64,000 nucleotides of DNA from Ethanoligenens harbinense YUAN-3 (GTDB taxonomy: Bacteria > Bacillota > Clostridia > Oscillospirales > Ethanoligenentaceae): positions 519,501 through 583,500 of the forward strand of contig NC_014828.1 in the NCBI RefSeq assembly GCF_000178115.2. The letters run 5' to 3'. Position 1 is the first letter of the stretch. Each line of letters starts with the position of its first letter. The position numbers and the translations under genes were made by a program. Below are positions 3,205 to 64,000 of this stretch, in pieces. The notes under the pieces were generated by a model, which ran no database searches, was not told where the DNA came from, and saw only the letters and a program-made list of their open reading frames with translations.

Positions 3205-3216
3205 AGTATCGCCTCC

Positions 3217-6396: not shown

Positions 6397-6468
6397 CGCA
6401 AAAACCTCCTTTCACGCGGATTGGAAATGTGATAACATGGAAGAAAACAACGGATGGAGAGGATTATA

Positions 6469-7990: not shown

Positions 7991-8003
7991 GGGTCAGCCC
8001 TCC

Positions 8004-8507: not shown

Positions 8508-8509
8508 GG

Positions 8510-12033: not shown

Positions 12034-12261
12034 TTATTTTTGTGTGTTCAGGTAATAGACGCTGTCGTATACCCGCTGGGCCTTGCGTCCGAAATCATTG
12101 TAATCGTAATAGTGCGGGGGCGCATATCCCTTTTCTTCAATCAGGTCAAACAGGGCATCCAGCACATTGCCGAGGGAGGATCCACTGAGCAGCGCATCCG
12201 CATTTTCAAGATTTCGGCGGATAAAGGTTTTGTCGCTTTCTTCAAATTGCAGCATGCTCAT
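12034..12261 (-). CDS. Small acidic helical protein, putative immunity partner of the MuF toxin
   Basis: 75 residues, MSMLQFEESDKTFIRRN, then SLGNVLDALFDLIEEKGYA and YDYNDFGRKAQRVYDSVYY. It is acidic and helical, with no phage structural family that I recognise. It overlaps the end of the MuF-type gene by four bases (ATGA) and is followed at once by a terminator, so the two are coupled. In MuF polymorphic toxin systems of Firmicutes prophages the immunity gene occupies this position. The immunity role is inference from position, size and charge; it could equally be an accessory head protein. Confidence 0.5.
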   Translation of the reverse strand: MSMLQFEESDKTFIRRNLENADALLSGSSLGNVLDALFDLIEEKGYAPPHYYDYNDFGRKAQRVYDSVYYLNTQK

Positions 12262-22373: not shown

Positions 22374-23324
22374 TCATATGATACCGATGCCCATTTCCCG
22401 GGCCTGCAGCGTCAGCATGTCGATTCCAATGTTTTCCGCGTCAACCGCATTGTTGTACACATTTACGCCGCCGCGGATTCCGTAACGGCCCTGGCAGATG
22501 CCGCGCAAAAAGTTCAACTCTCGTTTTTTCCCTTCCAGCGCGGGAAACAACAGCGCGATATCTTCCGGTGTTACCTGTTTGGTGGTGTATTTTCGGGTGA
22601 GCCGCTTGCGGGAATAGAGCTGCGCAAAGCACGATTGCCTGCGTCCTTCCATCCGGTCGTAGATTTCGGAGTTTCCGATCAGCACGATGCCGATGCCTTT
22701 TTTCCCATCAATGTGCGGCTCGGAAAGGGGCCGAATCTCGTCCAGCGCCCGCACCTGCAAATGCTGGGCTTCGTCGATGATGAGGACTTTGTCCGTATTG
22801 TACAGGCGTTCCTTCAGGTCGATGATCATATCCAGCTTGCTGCGCCCCTCGGGGATATGCAGCGCCCGGCAGATCAGCTTCATCACGTTTCCTACGGTGC
22901 CGGTGAGAGGGGTCACGGTGATCAGCACGGCGGTGTTGGGGTTGTCCCGCAAATATTTTTCGGCCGCCATCGTCTTCCCGATGCCCGCGTCACCGTGCAG
23001 GATGGTGATGCCTTTTTTCAACTGCCCAAAGCGGATTGCCTTGCGGATGTCCTCGCTGACGCTGATCGGTATGTAGGTGTCCAGCACGGGCTGAAATGGT
23101 TCAGCGCGTTGCGCCTGGGCGGCCGCCTCGTCCTGCAGCCGGAAATACTCCCTCAGGCTGGCTTCCACCTCATCCACACGTCCGCGCTCATAATCGCTGC
23201 GACGGTATTGGCTGATGACGCCGTCGCTCCATCCAAGGATACGGGATGCTTTGGCTTGGCTACCGCACTGCTTGATCAGTTCCTCTACGCGAGCCTGTAA
23301 TTTTACATCGTATGTTTGTGCCAT
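22374..23324 (-). CDS. MuB-type AAA+ target-selection ATPase
   Basis: 316 residues. An N-terminal helix-turn-helix (GSQAKASRILGWSDGVISQY) precedes an AAA+ core with GDAGIGKTMAAEKYL as Walker A (about residue 113) and KVLIIDEAQHLQV as Walker B (about 180). VLIGNSEIYDRMEGRRQSC acts as sensor and arginine region. In Mu, B binds target DNA, protects the phage DNA from self-integration and activates A. It is encoded just after the transposase gene, as in Mu, with 15 bases between. Confidence 0.9.
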   Translation of the reverse strand: MAQTYDVKLQARVEELIKQCGSQAKASRILGWSDGVISQYRRSDYERGRVDEVEASLREYFRLQDEAAAQAQRAEPFQPVLDTYIPISVSEDIRKAIRFGQLKKGITILHGDAGIGKTMAAEKYLRDNPNTAVLITVTPLTGTVGNVMKLICRALHIPEGRSKLDMIIDLKERLYNTDKVLIIDEAQHLQVRALDEIRPLSEPHIDGKKGIGIVLIGNSEIYDRMEGRRQSCFAQLYSRKRLTRKYTTKQVTPEDIALLFPALEGKKRELNFLRGICQGRYGIRGGVNVYNNAVDAENIGIDMLTLQAREMGIGII

Positions 23325-47554: not shown

Positions 47555-50500
47555 TTATCGGCTTTCCTTTTTCCGGCGGCGAAACAGCACCACCACGAAG
47601 GCGCAGGCGCCGACCAGACCACCGGCTGCTGCGACCGGCAACGCAGAAGACTGCGCAGCGCCCGTTTTAGGGTTAGACGCATTGGAATGGGAAGACGCAT
47701 CGTTGGAGGATGTTGTCCCATTTCCGGCCGAAACCGGCACCAGCCCGTTGACCGCATTCTGGAGGCTGCCCGTCAGTTGGTTGACCGCATCCTGCGTGAT
47801 GTTTTCATCCGTCAGCGCTGTCTTGGCCGCTGTCAGTTCCTGACGGAGTGTCTCCGCGCTCGCAGCCGTGTATTTGGTAAGATCCATTTTCGAGGTGGCA
47901 TCGACCAGCTTGGCCAAGTCGGTCTTATCCGCTTTGACACGAACTTTTGCAAGGGCGTTGAGCAAGGCGCTGTCTGCGCTGTCCACCGCGCTCTGCGTCG
48001 CATCGTTCTGCACCAGCAATGCCTGCGCCTGTGCCACGAGATCAGAAATCCCCTGCAAGGTGGCCGGCGCGTAGCTGCCTGCGTTGGCGAGCACCTGGCC
48101 TGCCAGCGAAACGGTGTTGCTCAGCGCCGCCTTGTTGGAAACCGTCACCAGTGCGTTCACCGCGCCCGCCAAATTGCTGTAGGCGGTCTGGATATCGGAC
48201 GCATTATTATCCAGATCGGCAGCTTCGGCCTGTGCGGCGCTCAACGCCGTCTGCAGGCTTTGCCAACTGGCATTGGTGTATTTGCTGCCATCCAGTTTCT
48301 GCACCGTTACAATTAGTGCGTTCAGATCCGTACGGTCCGCGATTTCCTGCAGATTGGTAAGCGCCTGCAGTACCGCGGCTACCGCGTTATCCGCTTCGGT
48401 TTGCACGGCGTTCGGGTCGTCCAACACAGCCTGTGCTGCCGCGACCGCATCGGTCAGCGCCTTCACACGCGCAGGTTTGTCATTGGATGTATCCGTGTTT
48501 TTCGCCAATGTGACGATCTGTTGCAGCGCAGATTTATCTGCCGCAAACACCAGACTGTTTTGGGCTGTCAGCAGTGCGTTGAACGCCTCATTAATGTCTT
48601 CCTGACGCGGGTGACCGGCCAGCACGGTCTGCGCAGCCGTCAATGCATCGCCGAACGGTTTCCAACTGTTCGGCGTATACTTGGTGGAATCCAACTTCTC
48701 CGCATTGGACACCAGCGTGTTCAACTGGGTGCGATCAACCGTCACCACCGCGCTCTGGAACGTGGCCACTGCCGTGTTCAGCGCAGTTACCGCCGCAGCC
48801 ACGTCTTCCGGCGTGGCATTGTCGTCGCTGTTTACGGCGTTTGCGGCATTGATCGCAGACTTCATGGAATCCATGGCGCTTTGCGGGTAATTGCCTTCAT
48901 AGTTGCCGACCACAGCCGCGCCATCCAGCGCCTGCGCACTGGCAATGGCAGACTGCAACGCGGTCTTGTCGGTTTTATGCGCGGTCAGCGTCACGTCGTC
49001 GGTCGTCTCGCCGTTTTGGGAATCATGCACGACGAGATGCATCTTGTTCTTGTCCACCGAGCAGGTCAGGTAAACGGCGTCGTCTTTGTTGGCCTCCTGC
49101 TGATGGGTGACGAAAGCATCCGGTTGCACTGGGTCAATGTCGTAAGTTTTGTCCCCACTGTGGCCGGCTGCGATATAGACCGTACCGTTGTTGCAGTTGG
49201 CCGGATCGGACGTCGCCGGAGTCTTGTCGTAGATGGGGTAGGTGCGACCGTAAGCATGATCGTGGCCGTTGAACACGATGTCCACACCCAGTTCGTCGCA
49301 CACCTGCGGCAACATATCGTAAAACATCGTGGAACCGTCCGACGGGTTCGTATTGAACGTCGGCTGGTGGGTCGCGATCATCTTCCAGGTCTTATGGGAA
49401 GCGTTCATATCCTTGCGCAGCCAATCGAGTTTTTCCTGCATCTGGGTGGTGTCGCCCGTCCAACCCAGAACGGCAATGTGCATGTTGCCGTAATCAACCG
49501 AATAAGTACCGGTTTTATCGCAGTCTGGGCCATTGCTGTTTGGCATGCCGAGGATGGCGGCGGATTTGGTGCCGTCGTCTCCCTGTAGCTCATGGTTGCC
49601 CATGACATGGATAAAGTCCATTGAATCAAAGATCGAATGCGAGCTGAGCATGTTGGCAGTAATATCCATTTCGTTGAAAATGGACTGATCGTCGGTGAAG
49701 TCACCCACATGAAGGGCAAAATCGGATTTGACCGGCGCGTTCTCAATGTCGGTGATGAAGCCGTCGAGTGCGCTGAGTCCCGCCGTATCACTGACCTGCG
49801 TATCACCGAAGACATTGAATGTCAGGTTGGAATCATCGGGCTTCAGGGTGGTGAACGTGCGCACGTCCGACCAGTTCGTGCCGTCGCCTACACGATAGGC
49901 GTAAGTCGTGCCGGCAGTGAGGCCGGTCGCGGTGACTGAATTGAGCGTGACGGCGCTGCTGTCGGCGGTGTAGGTGATGAGCTTGCATGTACCGGTATAA
50001 TCGGCAAAGGCGCTGTCGCCGTTCTTCGCGTAGTCATCCTGCCCGGCCACCTGCATGATGGCTTTTCCCCCGCCCTGCAACGGATTGGTCATCCATGTAA
50101 AGGTTTTTTCAGTCGTCGGGTCCTGCGTGGAACCGGCCAGCAGATTACTGGGCGCGGCGCCCTTCTGCGGATTGAACGACTGCCCGGCGGTCGGGAAACT
50201 GTACGCCGTATCCAACTGCGCCGAAAGCGTGAATTTCTGCGCCGTCTGGGTCGGCACGGCGCTTGAAAGATTGCCGTCCGCGTCGGTTTTGCCGAGATCC
50301 TGCGCGGTGCCGCCCGCAGGCGTGAACGTCACATCCGCACCGGCAGCCGGTTTACCGTCCGCCGTGGTAACGGTGAGCTGCCCATCCGCCCCCACGACCA
50401 TCTGCCCGAGAGAGACATTCAAGCTGGACGAAACCGGTATGGCTCCCGCGGTGCAGGAAAACGTGGCGTTAAAAGTGCCGCCCTGTGCAGCGGTGAAAGT

Positions 50501-53092
50501 AGCCGCGCCGCTGGTAACGCTGTAGGGGATGGTGCCGCCCTGTGCGGTGCCGGCCGGCACGGCAACATGGATGGTCGCCAGCGTGCCGGAGCCCTTGGCC
50601 GCGCCGCTGTTTTTGATGTTCAGTGTCACGTTGCCGGTGGAGACATCGTATTGGTAGGTGCTGCCCGCGGCGCTACCGGCAAAGTCCACGCCCGTCACCG
50701 GAAATGCCTCGCTGATATTGACGGTAGCCGTGGCGCCGGTCACATTGGACAGATCGTCCGCATTCAGCGTAAACAAATAGGTCCCGCCCAGAGGTGCGCT
50801 CGCGCCCTGTGGATTCAGCGAAATACCGGTGCCGTTGCTTGTTTTTACCGTGAAATAGACATCCTTGTCCGTTTCATTCCCGAAGTTATCCTGAATGGAA
50901 AGGTGCACATGGTGCACACCGTCCGCCCATTGATAACCGGACAAACTGAAAGTACCGTCTTTATCATAGGAATAATGGTCCTGGGCATTGGTATATTCCA
51001 CACCGTCCACCCAAATGCGGTTGCGGTCCCAGTTGATACCGGATTCATTGGGCTCGCTCACGTCGTGGATCGCTGTCGTAATGTTGACGGAAGACGTATT
51101 GTACGTTTTCCCATCCACATTTACCGAGTCGATCACCGGCGCAGTCAAGTCATCTACATTCGCGCCGTAGACCGCGCGGATGTTATCGACATAGATGCTT
51201 CCTTTGGTCATGGGGCCGACAATACCGGACTTGAGGGACATGATGCGGATCATCTGTTTGGGAAATGTCGTAAACGGACCTTGATACGTGCTTGGAATCG
51301 CTGCTTCACAGTATTTCCAGCCGGTCCAGTTGACACCGGACTGCGGCGTGATATCCAAAGGCTTGACGCTTCCGTTTTTATCGTAAACATACATGCGCAA
51401 CCAATACCCCTGCGCTTCGGGAGTCGCATAGACCCACATGCCGATTGCCGTCGGTGTGCCCGGAACAGGCACGCTGGTTGCCGGGCCGGCATAATCCCCG
51501 AGCGTGGTGGATTTCTGTGCGTTCGTATTGTCAAAGTCAATGCGCAGGGACTGCTGACCAAAGCGGACCGGATCATTCGGATATTTTGCAAGGGATATGC
51601 TGCACTGCTCGCCCCTGCCGGCGGTAGAAGTGCTCCAGTCGTCAAGATTCCCTTCAAAATCATACAGGACGACCGGGAGCTGGCCCACCTTGAGATTGAT
51701 AGAAGCCGTAAGATTTGTGCCGCTGAACTGTGCCGTGACCGTGCCGGAAGCGGACTGTCCGCCTGCGTGGAAGATATTGGAATCATCTATGGTACCCATC
51801 GCCGTGTTATAGGTCCACTGGATATCACCACTGTGCAGTGTAACCGTACGTCCCTTGTAGGTGGCGGTCAACCCCAAATCCTGCTGGGCATTGAACTTCA
51901 GGCTTAGCTCCGACTGCAAAAACTGCAAGCTGTCCGGAACGGCGACCTCTGCCCATGCGCTGCCTACTACTTTCCCATTCGAGGAAAGCTGAACCTGGAA
52001 CTGCCCCGTTTTTCCGCCGGATACAAATTTGCCCGTCTGGTCGATACTTCCGTAACTGGGGTCGGAAAGCGACCAAGACAAACCACCCGGCAACTGTGCC
52101 GGCGCACCGGAGGCATCCACACCTTTGGCGGCAAACTGCACGGTTGCACCAGGCGTATAGGTCTGATCGCCAGGTGTGATAGCTGCTGAAGCAAACTGTC
52201 CATCTGACACAGCGTTGGAAACAATCAGCCAGGAATTGGCCACGGTGCGTTCGTTGCCATCCGACGGGCTGTTTTTCACCGTCAGATCAGTATCTCCCGG
52301 TGTGCGGCTGGCAAAGGTGGAGGAACCACCGCCATCCAAATTGGCGGCCTGCACGGCACCGTCATCCAGCATTAGTTGGGATAGATCCGTCAGCGTAATA
52401 CCTTCGGAATAAGGGCTTTGCCGGCCGTCAATTACAATGAAGAACACGCTGCCGTCCGCGCGGATGCCTACGGCAGTACGTGGTTCGAGATCTGTGCTGC
52501 TGCCGACGGTTTTTCCGTTTACCACCAAAAGCTGGTTGCTGCTCATTGCTTCTTGAAGGTCGCCTTTGATCTGATTATACGTACTAGCATCTCCGATAAC
52601 GGCCATACCGTCCTTTTTTATGCCAAAAAAGCCACTGGAATTGTTGCTGGCGTGCAGTTCAACGCCATCTTTTACAATGAGACTGACCGGTTCGCCGGTG
52701 GACATATCATAAAAATCCCCGTTGACGGCGGCCACAATGTTTTTCCCGTTTTTTTCTGCGGCAGAAGCTTGGTCGCGCACGGTCTGCATCCCGTAAGATG
52801 TGCCGTCGTTTGGCATGCCCACGACCAGCGACGCATTTTTGTTTGACAAATCAACATCTGCTTCATAGCAGGCAACGCGGTTGTTGTCCCCTTTATTTAT
52901 ATATGTAAATGTTTTCTGTCCAACATCGGGGGATATTGTTGTCTTTGTTTCATCAATAATCGACTTAAATACAGATGACTGAATATCAACCGGGCCCAGT
53001 GCATATACGTCTACCGATGATAGAATCTGCGCAGCGCATATGCTAATTGCGACCGCCGCTGCGGCCAATTTTCTCTTTACTCTTTTTTTCAT
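47555..53092 (-). CDS. Giant cell-wall-anchored protein: phosphodiester glycosidase plus metallophosphatase
   Basis: 1,845 residues from MKKRVKRKLAAAAVAISICA; the preceding 61 codons look non-coding and AAGAAGGAAAACATTGG lies before ATG 53092. After a signal peptide comes a NAGPA-type phosphodiester glycosidase (about 100-300, AANLDGGGSSTFASR). Ig-like and galactose-binding-like modules follow (about 310-745, DFEGNLDDWSTSTAGRGEQ), then a cohesin-like module (about 755-870). Next are a purple-acid-phosphatase N-domain and metallophosphatase (about 995-1290; FNVFGDTQVS, HVGDFTDDQS, VMGNHELQGDD, FNGHDHAYGRTYP). FIVAR-like helical repeats (about 1377-1785) end in the NPKTG sorting signal with a membrane helix and basic tail. 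Probably a surface enzyme for phosphate-containing glycans. Confidence 0.85.
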   Translation of the reverse strand: MKKRVKRKLAAAAVAISICAAQILSSVDVYALGPVDIQSSVFKSIIDETKTTISPDVGQKTFTYINKGDNNRVACYEADVDLSNKNASLVVGMPNDGTSYGMQTVRDQASAAEKNGKNIVAAVNGDFYDMSTGEPVSLIVKDGVELHASNNSSGFFGIKKDGMAVIGDASTYNQIKGDLQEAMSSNQLLVVNGKTVGSSTDLEPRTAVGIRADGSVFFIVIDGRQSPYSEGITLTDLSQLMLDDGAVQAANLDGGGSSTFASRTPGDTDLTVKNSPSDGNERTVANSWLIVSNAVSDGQFASAAITPGDQTYTPGATVQFAAKGVDASGAPAQLPGGLSWSLSDPSYGSIDQTGKFVSGGKTGQFQVQLSSNGKVVGSAWAEVAVPDSLQFLQSELSLKFNAQQDLGLTATYKGRTVTLHSGDIQWTYNTAMGTIDDSNIFHAGGQSASGTVTAQFSGTNLTASINLKVGQLPVVLYDFEGNLDDWSTSTAGRGEQCSISLAKYPNDPVRFGQQSLRIDFDNTNAQKSTTLGDYAGPATSVPVPGTPTAIGMWVYATPEAQGYWLRMYVYDKNGSVKPLDITPQSGVNWTGWKYCEAAIPSTYQGPFTTFPKQMIRIMSLKSGIVGPMTKGSIYVDNIRAVYGANVDDLTAPVIDSVNVDGKTYNTSSVNITTAIHDVSEPNESGINWDRNRIWVDGVEYTNAQDHYSYDKDGTFSLSGYQWADGVHHVHLSIQDNFGNETDKDVYFTVKTSNGTGISLNPQGASAPLGGTYLFTLNADDLSNVTGATATVNISEAFPVTGVDFAGSAAGSTYQYDVSTGNVTLNIKNSGAAKGSGTLATIHVAVPAGTAQGGTIPYSVTSGAATFTAAQGGTFNATFSCTAGAIPVSSSLNVSLGQMVVGADGQLTVTTADGKPAAGADVTFTPAGGTAQDLGKTDADGNLSSAVPTQTAQKFTLSAQLDTAYSFPTAGQSFNPQKGAAPSNLLAGSTQDPTTEKTFTWMTNPLQGGGKAIMQVAGQDDYAKNGDSAFADYTGTCKLITYTADSSAVTLNSVTATGLTAGTTYAYRVGDGTNWSDVRTFTTLKPDDSNLTFNVFGDTQVSDTAGLSALDGFITDIENAPVKSDFALHVGDFTDDQSIFNEMDITANMLSSHSIFDSMDFIHVMGNHELQGDDGTKSAAILGMPNSNGPDCDKTGTYSVDYGNMHIAVLGWTGDTTQMQEKLDWLRKDMNASHKTWKMIATHQPTFNTNPSDGSTMFYDMLPQVCDELGVDIVFNGHDHAYGRTYPIYDKTPATSDPANCNNGTVYIAAGHSGDKTYDIDPVQPDAFVTHQQEANKDDAVYLTCSVDKNKMHLVVHDSQNGETTDDVTLTAHKTDKTALQSAIASAQALDGAAVVGNYEGNYPQSAMDSMKSAINAANAVNSDDNATPEDVAAAVTALNTAVATFQSAVVTVDRTQLNTLVSNAEKLDSTKYTPNSWKPFGDALTAAQTVLAGHPRQEDINEAFNALLTAQNSLVFAADKSALQQIVTLAKNTDTSNDKPARVKALTDAVAAAQAVLDDPNAVQTEADNAVAAVLQALTNLQEIADRTDLNALIVTVQKLDGSKYTNASWQSLQTALSAAQAEAADLDNNASDIQTAYSNLAGAVNALVTVSNKAALSNTVSLAGQVLANAGSYAPATLQGISDLVAQAQALLVQNDATQSAVDSADSALLNALAKVRVKADKTDLAKLVDATSKMDLTKYTAASAETLRQELTAAKTALTDENITQDAVNQLTGSLQNAVNGLVPVSAGNGTTSSNDASSHSNASNPKTGAAQSSALPVAAAGGLVGACAFVVVLFRRRKKESR

Positions 53093-53745
53093 TCCAATGT
53101 TTTCCTTCTTCCCCAAATCAAAGATTTTTGTTTGCTCTACGTCCTTAAACAGAGCTTTTTCAGACGTAAAATAGATTATTGAAACACTTTTATTTTTACA
53201 CCAATCCAAACCGATTGCTACCCAATGTATGTAAAATTTACGTATCCGCAAACAGGCTGAGGGATGCACAGGCAAAAGGCAGTAAAGCGGTCAAACTATA
53301 ATGAGGATGGCTGGCAGATTATTGCATGGATGCGAGATCCAATGAGAAGCACTCCAGATCATGCTCCCCCTTATTACAAAGAATAAGCACAGACACCGCC
53401 ATTCTTCGGCAAGTGCCTGTGCTTATATAATGCCAATAAGATACTGCTTTCTTCGCAGCGTGTAAACATGATGAAAAAATCAACAGAAGTATGGATTAAG
53501 CATTACGCATTCAACATCAAAGAGGAATTTGTTTGCGGAATTATCTGATTATATAATAACATCTTTTAATTGTTATGAGATAATCCAAATATCGTTCACC
53601 TGTTTGGTATGATTTATCTAATTGCATATAATCCATTCCGTTGCTAAAAGCGTAGACACATACAAAAAACATTATCTATAATAAATGTGAGCAAACGGAA
53701 ATAATGGGAATGTCATGTCAAACAATGGATAATGAGGGGATATAC
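53093..53745. other. Intergenic stretch with one strong hairpin
   Basis: No convincing gene. ATAAGCACAG (53383-53392) and CTGTGCTTAT (53417-53426) form a perfect stem, probably a terminator or scar; the flanks lack a long T run. The rest is AT-rich and should hold the promoter of the giant surface protein gene (minus strand) and the end of the small membrane ORF. Confidence 0.5.
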
Positions 53746-54327
53746 CTATCCTTCTTTCCCTGGCTTTTGATTCGTAAATTTTTTGAGAACAAAATACGCC
53801 AATGAAATTAATATTGTAATGACTGTGGCTGAATAGAAACCGATTCTAAAATCTTTTACCCAAAGACTGACGACGGAAAGGATACAGATCAGAAATATTG
53901 TTACATAACAACCAATACTGCCAAAAATGAGCGGTGAGGAAAAGCGCTCCTCCCCGTGCCGATGCTTTAACCAAAGAAGATAGACGATAAGGTTGATCGT
54001 CCAATTAAAGAAAGAGAAATAGGAGCAGGATGAGATTGGGTAATTAAACAGTTTGAAACTTAAAAAGAAAGATATTTCCACAATAATCAATGAAAATACA
54101 CCTGTTGCAAACCAAGCATTTTGATAAAATCGGTTCTTAGTTTTTCGCCTGAAAGCAGCAGGTGCCTCCTTGGTATTCGAAAGAGATGTCAACAGCAGGT
54201 TGCTTCCAAAATATGCCCCGAGCATAACAGAAAAGGCGGATTGTTGCGCTGCCATACTCCAAAAAGAAGTTGCGGACGCTATACATATTGACGAGTTCCA
54301 GTCAGCCACGCTTGTAACCGTCCTCAA
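53746..54327 (-). pseudogene. Membrane protein fragment, amino acid permease-like, fused to conjugation-gene debris
   Basis: 193 codons. The first 30 residues are an out-of-frame reading of the VirD4/TraG fragment next to it, so the ATG 54327 is not a real start. From about residue 30 (AFSVMLGAYFGSNLLLTSL, SNTKEAPAAFRRKTKNRFYQ) four membrane helices follow, ending LISLAYFVLKKFTNQKPG. Helix spacing and the KEAPAAF phrase resemble the second half of APC-type permeases. It is most likely the 3' part of a truncated transporter gene; the family is uncertain. Confidence 0.4.
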
Positions 54328-54795
54328 TCATGAGGATAATAAGAGCTGTCAGCAGTGTTCGGGCACTGTTTGGCCAAACCGGATCGGGCTGCGGATTATC
54401 CGTAAGAATCTGTGCCAGCTCTTTAATCAACTCGATTGAACCGAAATAATCCTCGTCGCCGACTTTTGCTTCCTCCAGACATCTTTTCTTGATTGTGGGA
54501 GAAGGTTTCGCTTAGAGCTGCGTTTCGGATTATCCAAACAGCCACAACATAGCCTTTATCTTTCAAAATGTATACCAACTTTCAAAGTCTTCACCTTTTA
54601 AGTCGAACACCAGAAAGGATTCCCGATTGCGGCCTTGACCGGCCAAGCGGATGGTGTTTAAGATGATGCGCATATCTTTGCCGCTTCGGGTCGTACCAAT
54701 AACCAGTGCACGGATCGCCTGCTTGTTCACAAAATCGAAAGAATCACTCTCGCCCACGAGCTTGGGCATGTAAGCCAACCCGGACGCTATTGTGA
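54290..54795 (-). pseudogene. VirD4/TraG-type coupling protein fragment, several frameshifts
   Basis: Pieces in different minus-strand frames line up with conjugative coupling proteins. KQAIRALVIGTTRSGKDMRI (Walker A) and SFLVFDLKGEDFE (Walker B) lie in 54563-54740. ILKDKGYVVAVWIIRNAALS follows, then EEAKVGDEDYFGSIELIKEL and LLTALIILMIEDGYKRGWLE nearer 54330. At least two frame changes separate them. This is a broken remnant of a conjugation module. Confidence 0.6.
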
Positions 54796-55434
54796 TAGGG
54801 AATGCCGTTCCTGGATTATTGACAAGGCGATACGGGAAAGAGTGCAGAAACGTCTTATGGAAAACGAAAAAAACGGTGCAAAAAACCGTGTAAACCGGAA
54901 ACATCTTCTCTCTGGGCTGATTCGCTGCCGGAAATGCGGTGCGCGTGGGGCGGCGTCACCATCAGTTCAAAAGGCTATGGACACAGCTACTTATACTTGC
55001 CTGAACAAAAGAAGGCTCCACACCTACGCGCCAAAAACATGGCCGTCGCAGACATAGAACCTTTGTTTGTAAACTGCCTAAAAAACGAAATTCTAAACGG
55101 CAAACTCATTAAAAACACGGCGGACGCGATCCTACAGGCCTGCAAAGATGACGGTGTGGGCAAGGCCAACGCTATCAGGCCGGAAATCTCCGCAACTGGG
55201 AAAAAGATTGAAAACCTGATGCATACGCTGGAAGACGGATTGGATAATGACATGGTACGCAACCGGATCATCGGGCACCAGGCACACCTGAAGATTCTGC
55301 GAGATCGTCCGGTCGCGGCACAACCGGCTCCAACCGTTACATGCGAGAAACTGATTGAGAAGCTTTCCCGCGACCGTAACCTTCTGCTGTCCGATCCGCT
55401 TATATCCGGCAGGCGCTTCGGAAATGTATTGTAA
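54796..55434 (+). pseudogene. Serine recombinase C-terminal fragment, frameshifted
   Basis: The plus strand reads RSWIIDKAIRERVQKRLMEN, NRKHLLSGLIRCRKCGA (first half of the zinc ribbon). It then changes frame and continues YLYLPEQKKAPHLRAKNMAV, ADIEPLFVNCLKNEILNGKL and a coiled coil to TAA 55432. The paired Cys and following helices match the large serine recombinase C-terminal part; the catalytic N-terminus is absent. It joins the TraG fragment head to head near 54795. Confidence 0.65.
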
Positions 55435-55500
55435 ATATTCTGATCAATGATGAAGCGGTTGAAATCAATACCGTCAGCAACCACCTTGCGAATAGAGCAA

Positions 55501-55528
55501 TCCCCGGCAGACTTTAGTCTGCCGGGGA
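55501..55528. terminator. Perfect 13-pair hairpin after the recombinase remnant
   Basis: TCCCCGGCAGACT (55501-55513) and AGTCTGCCGGGGA (55516-55528) with a two-base loop, followed by TTT. It is the strongest hairpin in the window and may terminate transcription from either side. Such sequences are also often repeated in genomes. Confidence 0.65.
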
Positions 55529-55636
55529 TTTGAACCCGTAAATACGGCTGGTTTCGGGAGTGCGCGACATATTTTACCTAAAATACTTTTCAAATTTCAT
55601 AACAAAGCTTAATAATGGATTGCGATATGCTTGTTG

Positions 55637-58600
55637 TCAGCGTCTTTTTGCTTTTTTCTTAATAAGCACTGAGAATGCGGTAATGCCAATCGCCGTTCCG
55701 GCCAGAATCAAGCTTAATATCACCATATACCAATTCATTCTCTCATCACCAGTTTGGGGATTCACAATAGCTGCTTGGGAATTTGAAGAGCTCATCTGAT
55801 TGCTTTCAGGAGTAGAAGTCGAAATACCCCCATAAGTCCCTGTACTGGAATTGGAGCTGCTGGAATCTGCGGAAAACAATGCCGTAACCCTGATGTCGCC
55901 TGTCACTTTTTTGTCTTGCCTTGTAGCAGAGATAAATCCATCGCTCCATTTCACGAAATGATAACCGGCATTGGCAATGGCCGCAACCGATGTCCCGTCG
56001 GCTCCCTGAGAAACGGTCTGCTTCGCGCTTCCCGAAACGGTGCCTCCGGCTCCGGCCGCATAAACAAGGCTATACGTCGTGGATGACGGAGGAATGTTGG
56101 TCGTACCAAGCAGTTGATCATAATTTCCATCATTTTTGCTTGAAACAAATACCTGGACTGCTCCGGTACTGTCTCCCGTTTTGTCTTTAATCAAAATGCT
56201 TGTTTTATCGGTGGAAACGGTTTGCGTGGTATTTTCTCCATCTGGTTCACGAACGGTTCCCACTGTTAAATTTTGAAGATGGGGAGAACTGACGATTACC
56301 CCCTGCGCATTTTGTGAAATGCTGACGTTCGCGCCACTGTTTGAGCTGACTTGAATATTTCCATCCGATGTTGGATCGGGGACCGAAGCCGTGTATGAGA
56401 ACGAACTGCCGTTGATGTCCACCGCATTATTCGATTTAAATACCATGTCGGCCGCGCCCGTTTCATTTACGGAAGCAAAACTGTTATGGTCTAGCGCCGA
56501 AACTTTCATGGCCTTCCCCTCGGGTGTGACCGTATACGTGCCTGCCGTCGAAAAATGATACCGCATTTCTCCGCCAACACCATCACTGAGCGGTACTTCC
56601 GAATCTGGAACCAGACTGCCCGATTGGGCAAAGCTCTGTGCGCGGGTAAATGTGCTGCCAGACGCATCGGATATGCTGAATCCATCAGCAGCACCTAAGT
56701 CAAAATATGTACCGGTCAATGTTTCCGTTTCTCCTGCGCTCGAATTTGTATCTGGGCCGGATACAATATAAGGATTATTGTTATCTTGACCGTCGATGTC
56801 AATAAAACGTAGCGCGTCTGTGTCCATATATCCAATTTCATTCCAATTAGATGCATTAATAGTTAGCGGATCATCGGAAAACTGGTAGGACATAAAATCA
56901 TCGGCAATTTTCAACGTTTCAAATTTGGTTGTGTCATTTGGGTCAATAATTTCCAATTCGTGGTATCCATCGGAGTCTTTCAAATATCCATTACAAATAA
57001 TGGCATGATTGTCAGGTTGTCCATTGCTAATTTGACCAACCTGCAGCACAAAAGGCATTCCACCCGAGGCGACGGCTTTAGCTTTTTGAACAATGCTTCC
57101 CATCACGGACTGACTTATCTGTTCTGTATCTCCCGTCAGTTTAGGATTGACTGCATTCACTATTTTATCAGAAATTGCTGGAATGTATTGAGAAAGATGA
57201 TAATAATTTATAAGATCTCGAACATGGGAATCATTTTTTGGTTTATTCAAATCGGAAAAATTTGACACATTCGGATTGTAGCTATCAAAGTTTTGTATGT
57301 TAATATTGCCCAACTTTGAAAGAATCATCGCAGAACTCATTCCAAAGCAGGATCCTCCCCATGCCGAATTTCTCTCATTAAGTAGATCATTTACCACAGA
57401 AGAATAATCGTTGTCATTTGTATATTTATCTTCTACACACTCAACCAGTTTATTAAATAAATGATCACTTATCGTATAGTTTGAAACATCTGAAGTGTTA
57501 AAGAAATCATTATAATTATTTGTAAACGTACTAGTATCGGTTCCTAAGATAAGAGCCTTAGATACAAAGGATTCAATTTTAACTGTATATGTGGCCGCTT
57601 TTCCTACATATATGACGGTGAGAGTTTCGGAATCCTTTGGTGCGGAGCTGTCAAACCCAGAAATATTTGCAGATGTGATCGGCTCGACTTTCGTGCTGCC
57701 GTCGCTATAGGTACCCGTTACCACCAGACCGGTGATATCAAGGGATTCTCCCACCACATAGCTGGTTTTTCCCGGCGGTGTTGTAATAGCGATGCTTTCC
57801 AGCGTTACCGGAGCTTCCGCAATTGGTTTAAATGTTCTTCCGTATTCCGCGGCGTAATCTTTTGCGGTCGAAGGATCATACCCGTAAATGACCGCACTGG
57901 CAGGGAGCGTGACACCAACATTGTCCTTATATCCGGATTGCCCTTCGCCGATTGTCGTCGTTGCGGATTCAAACGTAATGGAAGTCAGGCCGCTGCCATC
58001 AAATGCCTCATAATCGACATCTGTAACACTGGACGGGATGATTACGCTTGTAAGTGATTGGCAATCAGCAAATGCCTGCATGCCAATATACGTTAAATGA
58101 GACGAGAATCCAACGCTGGTCAGGCTGGTGCAACCCGAAAAAGACTCTCCTTCAATGCTGGTAACACCCGGAAGATCGATACTTTTCAGATTGGAACAAT
58201 TTTCAAATGAGCCTTCAATAGTGTTTACGCTTGAAGGAATTATAATGTTTGCAAAAGGACACCCTGCAAATGCTAAATTTCCGATGCTGGTCACAGTATC
58301 TGGAATTGTGACACTTTTTAAACCCGCACAGTAATTGAACTCATAGTCTCCAATCTGAGTAGTACCGGGAGCAAGCGTCACGCTGGTCAAATCATCACAG
58401 CCTTCAAAGGCGGAAACGCTTTTGGTAACGCTGGAGGGAACGGTCAGGCTGGCCAAAGTACTCCCTACAAATGCAAAGGCTCCAATGCTGGTTACACTGG
58501 AGGGAATCGTCACGCTGGTAAAACGGCAGCTTGCAAAAGCATAGTCTCCGATACTGGTTACACTGGAAGGAATCGTCACGCTGGTCAGGTTGCAACGGTC

Positions 58601-58906
58601 AAACGCATTGTCTCCAATGCCCGTGACATTGGACGGGATGGCCAGTGACAAATCGCTTGGTACAGTTAATATATTGTAGATAGGTTTCAGTGTATACCCG
58701 GTTACAATGCCATCCTCAATATTTAAATCATAATAGGTAAGAAAATCTGCGGATGCGCCCGTATCAGCAGATACATTTAGTCCAAACAGATTCAGAGACG
58801 ATAGGAGGACAGCAAATGATACGGCGATCGCTCCCGCCCGTAACGCCGTCTGTTTCCATACCCTTGATGAAAACAGTGATTGACTTCTCTTTTTAAGCAT
58901 TTTCAT
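55637..58906 (-). CDS. Cell-wall-anchored leucine-rich-repeat protein with cysteine-protease-like domain
   Basis: 1,089 residues from MKMLKKRSQSLFSSRVWKQT; GGGAGAAG seven bases upstream selects ATG 58906. A signal peptide ends FGLNVSADTG. About 70-315 are BspA-type repeats (SVTIPSSVTSIGDYAFASC and variants), then an Ig-like module (358-445, LESIAITTPPGKTSYVVGES). About 510-660 resemble a papain-like protease: GGSCFGMSSAMILSKLG (Cys near 520), GQPDNHAIICNGYLK (His near 633), ELEIIDPNDTTKFE (Asp/Asn near 653). An InlB/Flg_new-type repeat (about 945-1008) and an NPQTG sorting signal end it. Likely a surface adhesin or processing protease. Confidence 0.8.
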   Translation of the reverse strand: MKMLKKRSQSLFSSRVWKQTALRAGAIAVSFAVLLSSLNLFGLNVSADTGASADFLTYYDLNIEDGIVTGYTLKPIYNILTVPSDLSLAIPSNVTGIGDNAFDRCNLTSVTIPSSVTSIGDYAFASCRFTSVTIPSSVTSIGAFAFVGSTLASLTVPSSVTKSVSAFEGCDDLTSVTLAPGTTQIGDYEFNYCAGLKSVTIPDTVTSIGNLAFAGCPFANIIIPSSVNTIEGSFENCSNLKSIDLPGVTSIEGESFSGCTSLTSVGFSSHLTYIGMQAFADCQSLTSVIIPSSVTDVDYEAFDGSGLTSITFESATTTIGEGQSGYKDNVGVTLPASAVIYGYDPSTAKDYAAEYGRTFKPIAEAPVTLESIAITTPPGKTSYVVGESLDITGLVVTGTYSDGSTKVEPITSANISGFDSSAPKDSETLTVIYVGKAATYTVKIESFVSKALILGTDTSTFTNNYNDFFNTSDVSNYTISDHLFNKLVECVEDKYTNDNDYSSVVNDLLNERNSAWGGSCFGMSSAMILSKLGNINIQNFDSYNPNVSNFSDLNKPKNDSHVRDLINYYHLSQYIPAISDKIVNAVNPKLTGDTEQISQSVMGSIVQKAKAVASGGMPFVLQVGQISNGQPDNHAIICNGYLKDSDGYHELEIIDPNDTTKFETLKIADDFMSYQFSDDPLTINASNWNEIGYMDTDALRFIDIDGQDNNNPYIVSGPDTNSSAGETETLTGTYFDLGAADGFSISDASGSTFTRAQSFAQSGSLVPDSEVPLSDGVGGEMRYHFSTAGTYTVTPEGKAMKVSALDHNSFASVNETGAADMVFKSNNAVDINGSSFSYTASVPDPTSDGNIQVSSNSGANVSISQNAQGVIVSSPHLQNLTVGTVREPDGENTTQTVSTDKTSILIKDKTGDSTGAVQVFVSSKNDGNYDQLLGTTNIPPSSTTYSLVYAAGAGGTVSGSAKQTVSQGADGTSVAAIANAGYHFVKWSDGFISATRQDKKVTGDIRVTALFSADSSSSNSSTGTYGGISTSTPESNQMSSSNSQAAIVNPQTGDERMNWYMVILSLILAGTAIGITAFSVLIKKKAKRR

Positions 58907-59736
58907 CCGTCTTCTCCCTTTTGTCTTATAACTCCTCGACTCAATGCCTCTCAGAACAGGCAAACATACCAATCTGAATGAAGTATACCACCTTATATGC
59001 TTCTTTACAATATGTTCACAATTACAAGCAGTCATCCACACGAAATTTTTGAATTGTTTATAAAAAACAGTAAAAAGGCCTAAAATCAAAAAGCCTTGCA
59101 AAATTGCAGGTTACACTGCCTGTTGCTGATAACGGCACATCTTAAAGCCTGTAATATGCCATTTTCGATGGAGGTGGCACGTTACTTACAATTATAACGG
59201 GATTTGGATATGTCCCTGTTATTTCATTACTCTAGACCCTTCATCAAATCGGGTATAGCCCAGTCTAGGACATCCTCAATCTTATGGGGGACGCAATATG
59301 GTTTTAAATCGTTGAAACATTATCAAGCCGAGCAATTCAAACAAAATCAAAGCATCATAATTTTCCCATTTAATGAAATATATATTTACGCAAAACCCTG
59401 TACCGTTACTCAAACTTCTTTGACCACGCTTACATTACGAAATCATTACGGAATCATTACACAAACATTGCAAATAAATGATGTAATTTTTTAATGTTGG
59501 ATATAATATATCTAATGTGGCGAAATTTTATATTATGTCAACTCGGAACGGTTTTATTAAAGTGATTTTTCATTAAATGGGATAGCGTGTGTATGCAATA
59601 AATAAAGGGTTTATTTATTTTGCTTTTTCGGAATTGGTATAAAAACAGTTGACATGGCAGGTATATATACTCCCAATAATTCCGACAGATTGCGTACACT
59701 GCACAATGGAGTATGTATGAATACAGGAGGAAAGAT
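58907..59736. other. AT-rich divergent intergenic region
   Basis: Nothing that I can support as a gene: the plus-strand frame at 59204-59494 has no ribosome site and low-complexity content. The stretch must hold the promoters of the leucine-rich-repeat gene (left) and the second giant gene (right). A TTGACA at 59649-59654 precedes TATACT by only 11 bases, so it is not a clear promoter. CAAATCGGGTATAGCCCA at 59245-59262 repeats a motif from 39668-39685. Confidence 0.4.
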
Positions 59737-62700
59737 ATGAAAAAAAGCTATCTTAGGCGTCAATATGCAATTCTCAAAAAGACTGCGGCTATTGTATTAT
59801 GCTTTGTGGTTGTCGCATCTTCGGTTATTTACAAGGGCCCGCGTGCTTTGGCAGATGACAGTGACAGCACAGGTATCGGAACAATCCAGTCTGCTGAAAT
59901 CAAAGAATTGACTCCGGGACTAAATTACCAAGTGACCGAAAGTTCCAATACAGATGGATTGCAAAAAAGCCATACACTTACCTACAATCCGAAAACAGCC
60001 TCCGTGAAACCGGAGGTTACGTCAGGGCAATACATATGGGGAGCCGAAACTGTTGCACAGATGGCTGCAGAGCAGAGCGGTACAGTAGTCGCTGCCGTAA
60101 ACGGCTCTTTTTTTGATATTAACAATGGAACCCCGCGTGGAGAGGTTATAGAAAACGGTGAATTAACTTCCTGCGTAGAAGGCTATGATCGCACGGGTAC
60201 AACAACATATCCCAGTACCGGCACAAAGAAAAATGGATACGCACTGGTAGGTTTTCGAAAAGATGGAACGTTTGCTTGCGGTGTAGGAAACTACAGCATT
60301 AAATACACTGTTAAAGGGGCAGACGGCACAATTAAAACAAACAACTGGGATATTGACTATTTCAATAAATATTATTCTCCGATGACAAGCTGGAAGTATC
60401 TGTTTTCCAGTAAATACGGCACAAGCACCCATACAGACGCGCCTGGAACAGAAATCGTTATGGATGTTCAAAGTGGAACAATGCAGCTTGGTGGCATTGT
60501 AACGGCTAAAGTTGTAGAAAAAAAGCTAAATTCCACCGATACCCCCATCGGCGCAAATCAGTTGGTTCTCTATGCGGCAAATCAAAGCAATAAATTTTCC
60601 GACCTTTCGGACAGTCACATTAATGTTGGTGACACAGTCACCATTAGCGTAAGTGATTTAAATGAATCCACCAACCATTTTGCAGATTCAAACAATCCCG
60701 TGGTTAATGCCGTTACGGGGTTGGCTGTTCCCATTGTGGAAAATGGGCAAGTAACACAAGACGCATCACAATATGCAGACGAGCAAACACTGAATCCGCG
60801 TACGGCGATTGGCGTTAAAGCAGATGGAAGCGTTGTTTTGTTTCAAGTGGATGGCCGGCAGGACGGATGGTCTGAGGGAATGAATGGAGTGGGAATAGGC
60901 GAATATATGGTGCAGCAGGGCTGCGAACGGGCTTGTTTTTTGGATGGCGGTGGATCTTCTACGACGTTGGTGCGACAACCAGGGGATGATTCACTTTCTC
61001 TTGCCAATCGTCCAAGTGACGGTTCGGAACGCGCGGACAGCGACTGTATTCTTTTGGTGTCTACAGCAACGGTTACGCACCAGTTTGCAAGCGCATATGT
61101 CACACCCAGCCAAGAAACAGTGCCACCCCAGTCCACAGTGCAATTTTCTGCAAAGGGACGAGACAGTTCTGGGGCTTCTGCTGATTTGCCGTCATCGGGC
61201 CTACAATGGAGCTTATATGACAATTCTTATGGGACAATAGATGCGACCACCGGCGCCTTTGTTTCCAACGGAAAGTTGGGAAAAGTCAACATTATTTTGA
61301 AATATAATGGGAATGAGGTTGGTTCCGCCTCTCTGGAAATCGAAAATCCAGATTCATTTACATCTTCAGCTAACAACGTGACCATGCAGCCCGGAGATAC
61401 GAAATCATTGGGGCTGACGGCCACATATCAAGGTCACACCGTCAAGTTTACCAAATCAGACGTGACCTGGAGTATTCCAGACAATTTAGGTACAGTGGAT
61501 AATGATAATAATTTCGTTGCCGGGACTACTTGCGGCAGTGGGAATATCACTGCCAAATTCAATAATACGAATTTAAGCGTTACCATACATATACAGGTTG
61601 GACAAGATCCGGTTGTAGTAGAGAACTGCGAAAGTTTAACAGATGATACAACCGCGCAGTCCTTATGGACCAGTTTTCCTGGCAAGCGTGGTGAGCAAGT
61701 AAGCGTTGGTGCCAGCACTTATCCAGATTCGCCTGTGCGTTTTGGAAATCATTCTGTCAGAGTGGATTTTGACTTTACACAAGCGCAGAAAAATACAACA
61801 TTAACTGCGCATGCAGGCCCAAAAACTGTGACGGAAAGTGCACAAGGCACACCCACCAGCTTTGGCGTCTGGGTATATGGAACACCAGAAACGCAGGGAA
61901 TGAGCCTTTGGTTTGGGTTTGTGGATGGAAATGGAAATGATTTTGGCATGTATATGCCGCCGGAAACGGGAGAGCCTTACATTGCAAATTTAGGCCAAAT
62001 TTATTGGGAAGGCTGGAAATATATCAGTATTCCGATTGACACATCTGCACATCCCGGGCCAATTAAGCTGCAGGACAATGGGTATGCCATTGATCTTATT
62101 TCATTGAAATCAGGTACAACCGGCGGCGGCCCAATGACCAAAGGCAGCATTTATTTTGATAATTTCCGATTTGTTTATGGCACAGCTAATGATGATTTGT
62201 ATGCACCTATCATTGATTCAGTGAACGTGGATGGTAAAGCATACAACTCTTCTTCTGTCAATATTTCTGCGAACATCCACGACGACACATCAGACAAATA
62301 CATGAGTGGAATTAACTGGGACAGAGTACGTGTTTTGGTTGATGGAAAAGACTATACCTCTGATAAACAACACTTCTCATATGACAAAGATGGTATTGTG
62401 TATCTTTCCGGCTACCAGTGGTCGGACGGCACGCACAAAGTCACGGTAGATATCCAGGATAATTTCGGGAATGAAACAACCAAGGATGTCTATTTCACCG
62501 TGAATACAGGCAATGGCTCAAAACTCAGCTTGGAGCCGCAGGCGAACAGCGTGCAGCTGGGCGGCACCGGCGGTCTGGTTTTGAAGGCGGACGATATGTC
62601 CACGGTGACCGGTGCCACGGCAACGGTCACTATCGGAAAGGGTTATCCCGTCACCAGCGTAGATTTTGCGCAGAGCGCCGCACAGAGCACCTATCAGTAC

Positions 62701-64000
62701 GATGCTTCAACCGGCAATCTGACATTGAATATCCAGAACCGTGGCGCGGCCCAGAGTGCGGGCACACTGGCAACCATTCATGTTTCCGCGCCGAATACGG
62801 TTGCTCAGGGCAGCAGCATCGCATACAGCGCGTCCGGTGCATTCACACTGACATCGCAGACATCAACCAGCTTTATTTCCTCGTTCTCCGCATCCGGCTC
62901 GCTGTCCGTAGCCGCGGGGCTGAATATCACTGTCGGCCAGATGGTGGTCGGCTCACCGGGCACAATGACCGTAACGACAGCGGACGGCAAGGCTGCCGCA
63001 GGCGCGGATGTTACGTTTCTTTCCGCCGACGGAACAAAAACGGATCTTGGCACGACGGGTGCCGACGGAACGCTGCAATCGACTGTGCCGACGCAGACGG
63101 CACAAAAATTCACCCTTTGGGCTTCGCTCGGTGACGCATACAGCTTTGATACATCGGGCCAGTCATACAATCCTCAGTTGAGTGCGACACCGCAAAACCT
63201 GCTTGCCGGCTCGACGCAGGACGCTTCCACGGAAAAGACCTTTACCTGGATGACCAACCCGCTGCAAGGTGAAAACAAAGCCGTCATGCAGATTGCGCTC
63301 CAATCTGATTACGAGAAAAACGGAGAAAGCGCATTCAAGCATTATACCGGTACACGGCAGCTGATCACCTACTCCTCGGACAGCAGCGCGGTGGAGCTCA
63401 GCTCCGTGACGGCAACGGGGCTTTCGGCCGGAACTACTTATTCATACCGGGTGGGCGACGGAACCAACTGGTCGGATGTGCGCAGCTTTACAACGCTGAA
63501 AGCCGACGACGACCGGCTAACATTCAATGTGTTCGGCGACACACAGGTGACCAATACAAGCGGGCTGAGCGATTTCAGCACATTTCTTTCGCAGATTGAA
63601 AGCGCCGCTACAAAACCCGCGTTTTCCATCCATGTCGGCGACTTTACCGACGACCAGACAAACTTCAGTGAGATGAACATGACCGCCAACATGTTCAGCC
63701 AGCACGCGGCATTCGATTCGCTTGATGCCATCCATGTATTGGGCAACCACGAATATATGGGAGACGACGGGACAAAATCCGCAGCCATTTTGGGGCTGGC
63801 CGACAGCAATGGGCCGGATTGTGACAAAACCGGAACCTACTCGGTGGATTACGGAAACATGCACATTGCCGTGCTGGGCTGGACAGACAACGCAAGCGAC
63901 ATGGCAAAAAAGATGGACTGGCTGCGTCAGGACATGAAATCCACCAACAAGACATGGAAAATCATCGCCACGCACCAGCCGACCTATAATAAGAACCCGG
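59737..64000 (+). CDS. Second giant phosphodiester glycosidase/metallophosphatase surface protein (3' end beyond window)
   Basis: Open from ATG 59737 (AGGAGGAAAGAT upstream) to the window edge, 1,421 codons. Signal peptide MKKSYLRRQYAILKKTAAIV and a cut near RALADD, then a NAGPA-type domain with VVAAVNGSFFDINNGTPRGE and CFLDGGGSSTTLVRQPGDD (about residue 403). The same Ig, galactose-binding-like (about 630-820) and cohesin-like modules follow as in the minus-strand paralogue. Then come the metallophosphatase motifs FNVFGDTQVTN, HVGDFTDDQT and VLGNHEYMGDD; the frame is cut at THQPTYNKNP. DNA is AT-rich until about 62,400 and clearly GC-richer after. Confidence 0.85.
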   Translation, partial: MKKSYLRRQYAILKKTAAIVLCFVVVASSVIYKGPRALADDSDSTGIGTIQSAEIKELTPGLNYQVTESSNTDGLQKSHTLTYNPKTASVKPEVTSGQYIWGAETVAQMAAEQSGTVVAAVNGSFFDINNGTPRGEVIENGELTSCVEGYDRTGTTTYPSTGTKKNGYALVGFRKDGTFACGVGNYSIKYTVKGADGTIKTNNWDIDYFNKYYSPMTSWKYLFSSKYGTSTHTDAPGTEIVMDVQSGTMQLGGIVTAKVVEKKLNSTDTPIGANQLVLYAANQSNKFSDLSDSHINVGDTVTISVSDLNESTNHFADSNNPVVNAVTGLAVPIVENGQVTQDASQYADEQTLNPRTAIGVKADGSVVLFQVDGRQDGWSEGMNGVGIGEYMVQQGCERACFLDGGGSSTTLVRQPGDDSLSLANRPSDGSERADSDCILLVSTATVTHQFASAYVTPSQETVPPQSTVQFSAKGRDSSGASADLPSSGLQWSLYDNSYGTIDATTGAFVSNGKLGKVNIILKYNGNEVGSASLEIENPDSFTSSANNVTMQPGDTKSLGLTATYQGHTVKFTKSDVTWSIPDNLGTVDNDNNFVAGTTCGSGNITAKFNNTNLSVTIHIQVGQDPVVVENCESLTDDTTAQSLWTSFPGKRGEQVSVGASTYPDSPVRFGNHSVRVDFDFTQAQKNTTLTAHAGPKTVTESAQGTPTSFGVWVYGTPETQGMSLWFGFVDGNGNDFGMYMPPETGEPYIANLGQIYWEGWKYISIPIDTSAHPGPIKLQDNGYAIDLISLKSGTTGGGPMTKGSIYFDNFRFVYGTANDDLYAPIIDSVNVDGKAYNSSSVNISANIHDDTSDKYMSGINWDRVRVLVDGKDYTSDKQHFSYDKDGIVYLSGYQWSDGTHKVTVDIQDNFGNETTKDVYFTVNTGNGSKLSLEPQANSVQLGGTGGLVLKADDMSTVTGATATVTIGKGYPVTSVDFAQSAAQSTYQYDASTGNLTLNIQNRGAAQSAGTLATIHVSAPNTVAQGSSIAYSASGAFTLTSQTSTSFISSFSASGSLSVAAGLNITVGQMVVGSPGTMTVTTADGKAAAGADVTFLSADGTKTDLGTTGADGTLQSTVPTQTAQKFTLWASLGDAYSFDTSGQSYNPQLSATPQNLLAGSTQDASTEKTFTWMTNPLQGENKAVMQIALQSDYEKNGESAFKHYTGTRQLITYSSDSSAVELSSVTATGLSAGTTYSYRVGDGTNWSDVRSFTTLKADDDRLTFNVFGDTQVTNTSGLSDFSTFLSQIESAATKPAFSIHVGDFTDDQTNFSEMNMTANMFSQHAAFDSLDAIHVLGNHEYMGDDGTKSAAILGLADSNGPDCDKTGTYSVDYGNMHIAVLGWTDNASDMAKKMDWLRQDMKSTNKTWKIIATHQPTYNKNP

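Follow-up and report, generated by a model that had tools for sequence, protein, structure and literature searches.

A NAGPA/DUF2233 activity in bacteria was reportedly described by Das et al. in 2013, with BACOVA_00430 of Bacteroides ovatus said to be weakly active on GlcNAc-P-mannose. A phosphodiesterase route is known from Bacillus subtilis, in which PhoD and GlpQ, both controlled by PhoPR, draw phosphate from wall teichoic acid (PMC6232261). Spore-forming Bacillota possess large surface proteins that combine NAGPA with a second enzyme, TelC, and a conflict role has been proposed for them (PMC12419801). We analyzed a stretch of 64,000 nucleotides (the window) from Ethanoligenens harbinense YUAN-3, corresponding to bases 519501-583500 of the complete genome of 3,008,576 bases. 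Two genes in the span 47555-64000, A and B, encode surface proteins that join a NAGPA domain to a metallophosphoesterase (MPE) with the fold of purple acid phosphatases (PAPs). We found no description of a fusion of NAGPA with a PAP-fold phosphatase in the literature.

Like A and B, the TelC-NAGPA proteins are giant and surface-located, and they contain Ig-like modules as well as a core of two enzymes, one of which is NAGPA. However, the partner there is a Lipocone TelC domain with a proposed conflict role, whereas the partner in A and B is a phosphatase with a proposed role in phosphate supply. A PAP or MPE partner of NAGPA is unmentioned in that study, where calcineurin-like enzymes appear in another context (PMC12419801), and a Pfam scan of A and B gave no TelC-like match, although no separate TelC model was run. 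PhoD and GlpQ are likewise secreted and, as is predicted for the fusions, hydrolyze phosphoesters; both are Pho-regulated, as is predicted for the Bacillaceae homologues of A and B. PhoD shares the MPE fold (Z 23.2 to the model of A). However, PhoD has a Tyr-Fe site with two Ca ions, and neither PhoD nor GlpQ has a glycosidase domain.

With moderate confidence, we propose that A, B, and a third paralogue, C (C1:1824624, 1.25 Mb from A and B; 1880 aa; sorting signal SPKTG), act at the surface as two-step enzymes that win phosphate from glycosyl-phosphodiesters. They would be bifunctional hydrolases that are secreted and anchored by sortase. The NAGPA domain would take the sugar off a glycosyl-phosphodiester (R-O-PO2-O-sugar), leaving a phosphomonoester on R, and the PAP-fold MPE of the same chain would then remove the phosphate. 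The net yield at the cell surface would be phosphate and free sugar from phosphate-linked glycans. The activity itself, the order of the two steps, and the substrate are what we infer from the observations below.

Domain architecture of A and B

Gene A encodes a secreted surface protein of 1845 aa. Its start codon is at 53092, with GAAGAAGGAAAAC directly 5' and a plausible ribosome binding site (RBS), GAAGAAGG. Gene B starts at 59737, with AGGAGGAAAGAT directly 5'. The window holds 1421 of its 1953 aa, and the remainder was read from the genome past the window end (full open reading frame (ORF) L007:237-6095, end at G000:C1:585095). Both proteins have a signal peptide, a NAGPA/DUF2233 domain, Ig-like domains, a carbohydrate-binding module (CBM)-like sandwich, a cohesin fold, a PAP N-terminal domain (PAP_N), the MPE domain, FIVAR repeats, and an NPxTG signal. 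The features are as follows.

47555..53092, minus: gene A, NAGPA-Ig-CBM-Ig-cohesin-MG-PAP_N-MPE-FIVAR-NPKTG, where MG is a macroglobulin-like domain (ORF, Pfam)
52994..53092, minus: A signal peptide, residues 1-33, by inspection, sequence MKKRVKRKLAAAAVAISICAAQILSSVDVYA
52211..52978, minus: A NAGPA/DUF2233 phosphodiester glycosidase domain, compact subtype, residues 39-294 (Pfam 1.4e-42; fold match)
51683..52204, minus: A Ig-like domain pair, residues 297-470 (model, Z 10.6 to LigA segment 8gyr)
51161..51685, minus: A CBM-like beta-sandwich, residues 470-644 (Z 17.6 to FlaA1, 9cyn; Z 12.6 to CBM11, 6r3m)
50837..51163, minus: A additional Ig-like domain, residues 644-752 (structure model; Pfam Big_13 in B and in 8/15 members of the homologue set)
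50423..50833, minus: A cohesin-fold module, residues 754-890 (Z 13.2 to ScaC cohesin 4uyp; Pfam Cohesin in 3/15 homologues)
50171..50422, minus: A macroglobulin/CarboxypepD-like beta domain, residues 891-974 (structure model; weak Pfam DUF4198/MG4)
49847..50134, minus: A PAP N-terminal (fn3-like) domain, residues 987-1082 (Pfam PF16656, 5.4e-13)
48971..49822, minus: A PAP-fold MPE catalytic domain, residues 1091-1374 (Pfam PF00149, 1.6e-13; model)
47723..48970, minus: A FIVAR repeats, four stretches (Pfam PF07554, 9e-28)
47558..47674, minus: A NPKTG sorting signal, hydrophobic stretch, and basic tail (TIGR01167, 18.4 bits, cut-off 15.9)
59737..64000, plus: gene B, first 1421/1953 aa, with the NPDTG end outside the window (ORF; RBS AGGAGG)
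59866..61068, plus: B NAGPA domain, insertion-bearing subtype, residues 44-444 (Pfam 5.1e-29; HMM span 44-444)
61069..63192, plus: B Ig, CBM-like, Ig, cohesin-like, and MG-like modules (47-70% identity to A)
63193..63495, plus: B PAP N-terminal domain (Pfam PF16656, 8.8e-14)
63514..64000, plus: B MPE domain, N-terminal part with GDTQ, GDFTDD, GNHE, and THQP (motifs; 70-73% identity to A and C here)

Sortase anchoring is indicated by the TIGR01167 match and a Pfam match to an LPXTG-type anchor in A, the NPDTG and SPKTG signals in B and C, and two sortases in the genome. The same genome encodes three more PAP_N proteins that have no NAGPA domain (L015, L018, and L019, at C1 790958, 124470, and 330953; 633-851 aa), all with NPxTG signals, and one of them adjoins a sortase gene. 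It also encodes three NAGPA proteins that have no PAP_N.

NAGPA domain

The NAGPA family PF09992 matched A with 146 bits (E 1.4e-42) and B with 102 bits (E 5.1e-29), far above the Pfam gathering cut-off of 25. AlphaFold2 models were built from a 13-sequence alignment, with mean pLDDT values of 85 for residues 35-989 of A and 78 for residues 984-1379. In the model comparison, the first ~260 residues of A match the DUF2233 protein 3ohg (BACOVA_00430) over 256 residues, with Z 33.8 and a root mean square deviation (rmsd) of 2.1. The match to animal NAGPA has Z values of 25-27 (guinea pig NAGPA 6pku: Z 27.1, 219 residues). These results agree with the first-pass annotation, which had assigned a NAGPA-type domain to both proteins. 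Profile alignments located the cavity motifs common to 3ohg and the NAGPA chains (N..F, GE.G, RTA, DGR/Q, NLDGGGS, and N.PSD..R). Fold and conserved-cavity motifs are thus all alike between A/B and NAGPA or BACOVA_00430, whereas fusion to an MPE and adhesin-like modules sets the domains of A and B apart.

Phosphatase domain and its metal site

Pur_ac_phosph_N (PF16656) was detected in A (5.4e-13) and B (8.8e-14), and Metallophos (PF00149) in A (1.6e-13); the full B protein carries Metallophos too. The PAP_N and MPE domains of A (MPE model pLDDT 78) superimpose on kidney bean PAP over 364 residues with Z 36.9 and rmsd 2.9. A and B thus resemble plant-type PAPs in having an fn3-like N-terminal domain followed by the MPE domain. 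The metal motif set is DxQ/GDxxD/GNHE/H/GHDH, with GDTQ as motif I, and the ligands assigned by homology are D1097, Q1099, D1131, D1134, N1166, H1242, H1277, and H1279 (A numbering).

The Fe(III)-ligating Tyr of the GDxxY motif is highly characteristic of PAPs (PMC4223295). In contrast to plant PAPs, in which the motif reads GDLxY, A, B, and C have GDFTD at this place (consensus GDxIDD), and Asp occupies the Tyr position in 15/15 homologues and in the Bacillaceae set; motif I, GDTQ, is a further difference. The other metal ligands (D, D, N, H, H, H) do not vary among the aligned homologues. By this mark the domain is not a true PAP, and, judged by its sequence, it is a PAP-fold MPE and no proven PAP. 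All metal motifs of a PAP-type domain had been claimed at first pass for both proteins. The set is indeed complete as that of an MPE, but the PAP Tyr is replaced. Moreover, GHDH of B exists in the genome but lies past base 64000; therefore, the complete motif set of B could not be read from the window.

Conservation of the fusion

The fusion tallies come from sampled searches in which few candidates were scored per genome, and they are lower bounds. Across Bacillota, 24 non-redundant NAGPA-MPE fusions were found, with more in one Bacillaceae family (33/193 genomes matching at E<=1e-60, ~25 full fusions). A scan of named genomes gave 15 loci; 12 full-length homologues taken from these, together with A, B, and C, all contain NAGPA, Pur_ac_phosph_N, and Metallophos (15/15). 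This set covers Sporolactobacillus, Schleiferilactobacillus, Clostridium, Sedimentibacter, Anaerobacterium, Sutcliffiella, Metabacillus, Bacillus, and E. harbinense. In Oscillospirales, 5/295 sampled genomes carry the fusion with differing anchors, SLH included. Overall, the anchors vary (sortase signal, SLH, dockerin, or none) and the domain order is constant.

In 35 full-length fusions, all 22 checked columns of the NAGPA cavity are invariant. The 13 MPE columns checked are also identical, except for one Thr to Ile replacement at a non-ligand position of GDTQ. An additional copy, L151, has its MPE part interrupted by stops and retains the 22 NAGPA columns. The invariant columns of both domains in the 35 fusions argue that two working active sites have been selected together, i.e., that the NAGPA and MPE sites are under joint selection.

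A separate observation is a 2837-aa fusion at locus L112 (G032:C3, protein 683-9196), in which a CotH kinase domain and SLH repeats follow the NAGPA and phosphatase domains. Gene neighbourhood was considered as a clue to the substrate and dropped because nothing is conserved beyond one Sedimentibacter/Anaerobacterium operon and close relatives.

Relationship of B to A and C

The PAP-MPE regions of A, B, and C are 70-83% identical, but in the N-terminal and NAGPA regions the identity of B to A and C is no more than 25-39%. The NAGPA domain of B is longer by ~140 residues and falls among the insertion-type NAGPA domains of other proteins (L113 and L124; support 99/92, 95/84), apart from A and C, while its PAP-MPE region groups with A and C (support 100/100). 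The branch of B in the NAGPA tree is long and its exact place unsure, but the grouping agrees with the insertion and with L113 being the best BLAST match (36.5% over 400 residues). B is thus a chimera and not a copy of A: it combines an A-type PAP-MPE with an insertion-bearing NAGPA domain of another subtype.

At least four changes are needed to place the fusion on the NAGPA tree. Together with the subtype swap in B at a constant PAP-MPE, this suggests that the pairing has been kept or remade. Because A/C and B combine one phosphatase type with two NAGPA subtypes, they probably handle different sugar-phosphate linkages. Identity also jumps between modules: A and C are 86% identical in NAGPA and 48% in the CBM-like module (A residues 470-645), where B and C share 78%. 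Such jumps are a sign of recombination between the three paralogues.

Cohesin-like and glycan-binding-like modules

The first-pass annotation had also described glycan-binding-like modules and a cohesin-like module, and both descriptions are borne out. The former adopts a CBM/FlaA-like fold in the model of A (FlaA1, Z 17.6; CBM11, Z 12.6). The cohesin-fold model of A aligns with ScaC cohesin over 130 residues (Z 13.2, rmsd 2.8 Å), and Pfam Cohesin scores in 3/15 homologues, with a best value of 6e-11. The suggested search for a matching dockerin with profile PF00404 gave none in the complete genome, and on this ground we rejected a cohesin-dockerin assembly in E. harbinense YUAN-3.

Two relatives, Sedimentibacter (L036:7911-15631) and Anaerobacterium (L040:5923-15199), carry a dockerin in the fusion itself and have an operon of the dockerin-bearing NAGPA-MPE fusion, a GHL10 hydrolase, and an adjoining cohesin-SLH anchor gene. 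The GHL10 hydrolase of L036 carries a dockerin as well. The products of this three-gene cluster are predicted to form a small complex at the cell surface that is unrelated to cellulose degradation.

Upstream repeats in Bacillaceae

TTHAYA hexamers were first seen upstream of five Bacillaceae homologues. Because A and B have no such repeats upstream, this hint was retested on a fresh set of 22 homologues from a separate family search. In these regions, 22 pairs of coding-strand TTHAYA hexamers lie 11 bp apart and 12 pairs lie 22 bp apart, and the opposite strand of the same regions has no pairs at such spacing. A scan of periods 7-16 peaked solely at 11 (20.95 vs 16.8-18.1). The array lies ~80-125 bases before the start codon. 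When the fresh set was combined with seven further relatives and the first five, 17/34 regions beat dinucleotide shuffles at p<0.05, and the coding-strand scores exceeded those of the opposite strand (20.6 vs 18.3, Wilcoxon p 1.9e-6), although these p-values overstate independence because the Bacillaceae genomes are related. Three NAGPA-only relatives, all of a single genus and lacking an MPE in the flanking sequence examined, have no repeats.

A PHO box is built of direct repeats of 11 nt, and this holds for B. subtilis too (PMC4415409). Given this definition, the 11-bp hexamer arrays indicate that the Bacillaceae fusions are probably under phosphate-starvation control, with PhoP binding predicted.

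Proposed function and alternative readings

The first-pass annotation had suggested that phosphorylated glycans are used in two steps by one chain. This idea is plausible and is now backed by evolutionary evidence (intact residues of both sites in 35 fusions and a conserved pairing) and by regulatory evidence (PHO-box-like repeats in Bacillaceae), but the repeats do not extend to A and B. Of the substrates named there, lysosomal-type N-glycans have nothing in their favor; for yeast phosphomannan there is no evidence, and a wall glycopolymer is at least as likely.

Several points weigh against the two-step proposal. The fusion is sparse, at ~1% of a 398-genome Bacillota sample (a lower bound), and NAGPA is mostly found without an MPE. 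The search for PHO-box-like repeats upstream of A and B gave none (p 0.81 and 0.99), and those upstream of C are weak (p 0.017, one among many tests). No such repeats precede pstS of E. harbinense either; therefore, the motif may be inapplicable to this genus. As stated, the regions upstream of the Bacillaceae homologues are not fully independent. Finally, PAP-fold enzymes can be phosphodiesterases, which leaves the strict order of the two steps unproven.

Within the two-step proposal, we tentatively suggest that the substrate is a cell-wall glycopolymer, own or a neighbour's, such as glycosyl-1-phosphate teichoic acids or the HexNAc-alpha-1-P-6-MurNAc bond through which wall polymers are joined to peptidoglycan. 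NAGPA would free the polymer, and the MPE would clear the MurNAc-6-phosphate or backbone phosphate. GlcNAc-alpha-1-P-6-Man, which is cut by human NAGPA, is the chemical counterpart of the HexNAc-alpha-1-P-6-MurNAc wall linkage. SH3_3 domains of the wall-binding type are present in four fusion members. The E. harbinense genome contains an LCP ligase gene, and products of the LCP family attach polymers to peptidoglycan. The dockerin-linked operon of Sedimentibacter and Anaerobacterium includes a hydrolase of GHL10, the family to which we take E. coli DigH to belong. DigH degrades denuded (peptide-free) peptidoglycan glycans (PMC12288456), and in B. subtilis the PhoPR-controlled PhoD and GlpQ use the phosphate of wall teichoic acid (PMC6232261). 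Taken together, these points put wall glycopolymers on a par with yeast phosphomannan as candidate substrates. However, no wall-synthesis neighbour is conserved, and the linkage-unit argument is one of general chemistry. A wider form of this idea, which we regard as speculative and unlikely, is a Pho-controlled bifunctional class that strips glycosyl-phosphodiester polymers from Gram-positive walls in two coupled steps, including the HexNAc-1-phosphate-6-MurNAc bond, with specificity set by NAGPA subtype swaps on a constant phosphatase.

A rather doubtful alternative is that there is no relay, and that the scaffold carries an independent surface phosphatase or phosphodiesterase comparable to PhoD and an independent glycan trimmer. 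This would fit the phosphodiesterases among PAP-fold enzymes (PhoD, Z 23.2; PMC4223295) and the occurrence of each domain without the other in three proteins of this genome. However, the pair recurs in constant order across Bacillota despite different anchors, and in B the PAP-MPE remained joined to a NAGPA domain even as the subtype of the latter changed. Lastly, a weapon or tool for contact with other bacteria, comparable to the TelC and NAGPA two-enzyme core of Bacillota (PMC12419801), would suit the domain recombination among A, B, and C, but it is improbable because the PHO-box-like control in Bacillaceae fits nutrition better and no toxin-immunity neighbour was noticed at the loci examined.

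If the two-step proposal is true, winning phosphate from glycosyl-phosphodiesters would be a physiological role for bacterial NAGPA/DUF2233 proteins, which are widespread and mostly of unknown role. It would place a glycosidase-first route beside the known phosphodiesterase route of PhoD and GlpQ, and the proteins might serve as tool enzymes to dismantle wall polymers or phosphoglycans.

Genome setting

A BspA-type leucine-rich repeat (LRR) surface protein is encoded between A and B (55637-59101), with Big_3, an InlB-like repeat, and an NPQTG signal; it is unrelated to the fusion. Its center contains GGSCFGMSSA ... NHAII ... IIDPND, by appearance a papain-like cysteine peptidase motif, with no Pfam match.

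A Mu-like transposable prophage occupies 477-25292 of the window on the minus strand, with the following genes assigned by PHROGs.

23340-25292, minus: transposase
22374-23324, minus: DNA transposition protein
15379-16914, minus: terminase large subunit
13928-15352, minus: portal
12258-13928, minus: minor head
10144-11319, minus: major head
3217-6396, minus: tape measure

About 5 kb past gene B, a cluster (L007:11197-17591; G000:C1:590197-596591) encodes a DeoR regulator, an SBP_bac_6 binding protein, a type I phosphodiesterase/nucleotide pyrophosphatase family enzyme, ABC permeases with an ATPase, and a HAD phosphatase, with a mannose-6-phosphate isomerase gene close by. By appearance, this cluster may serve the uptake of a phosphorylated compound.

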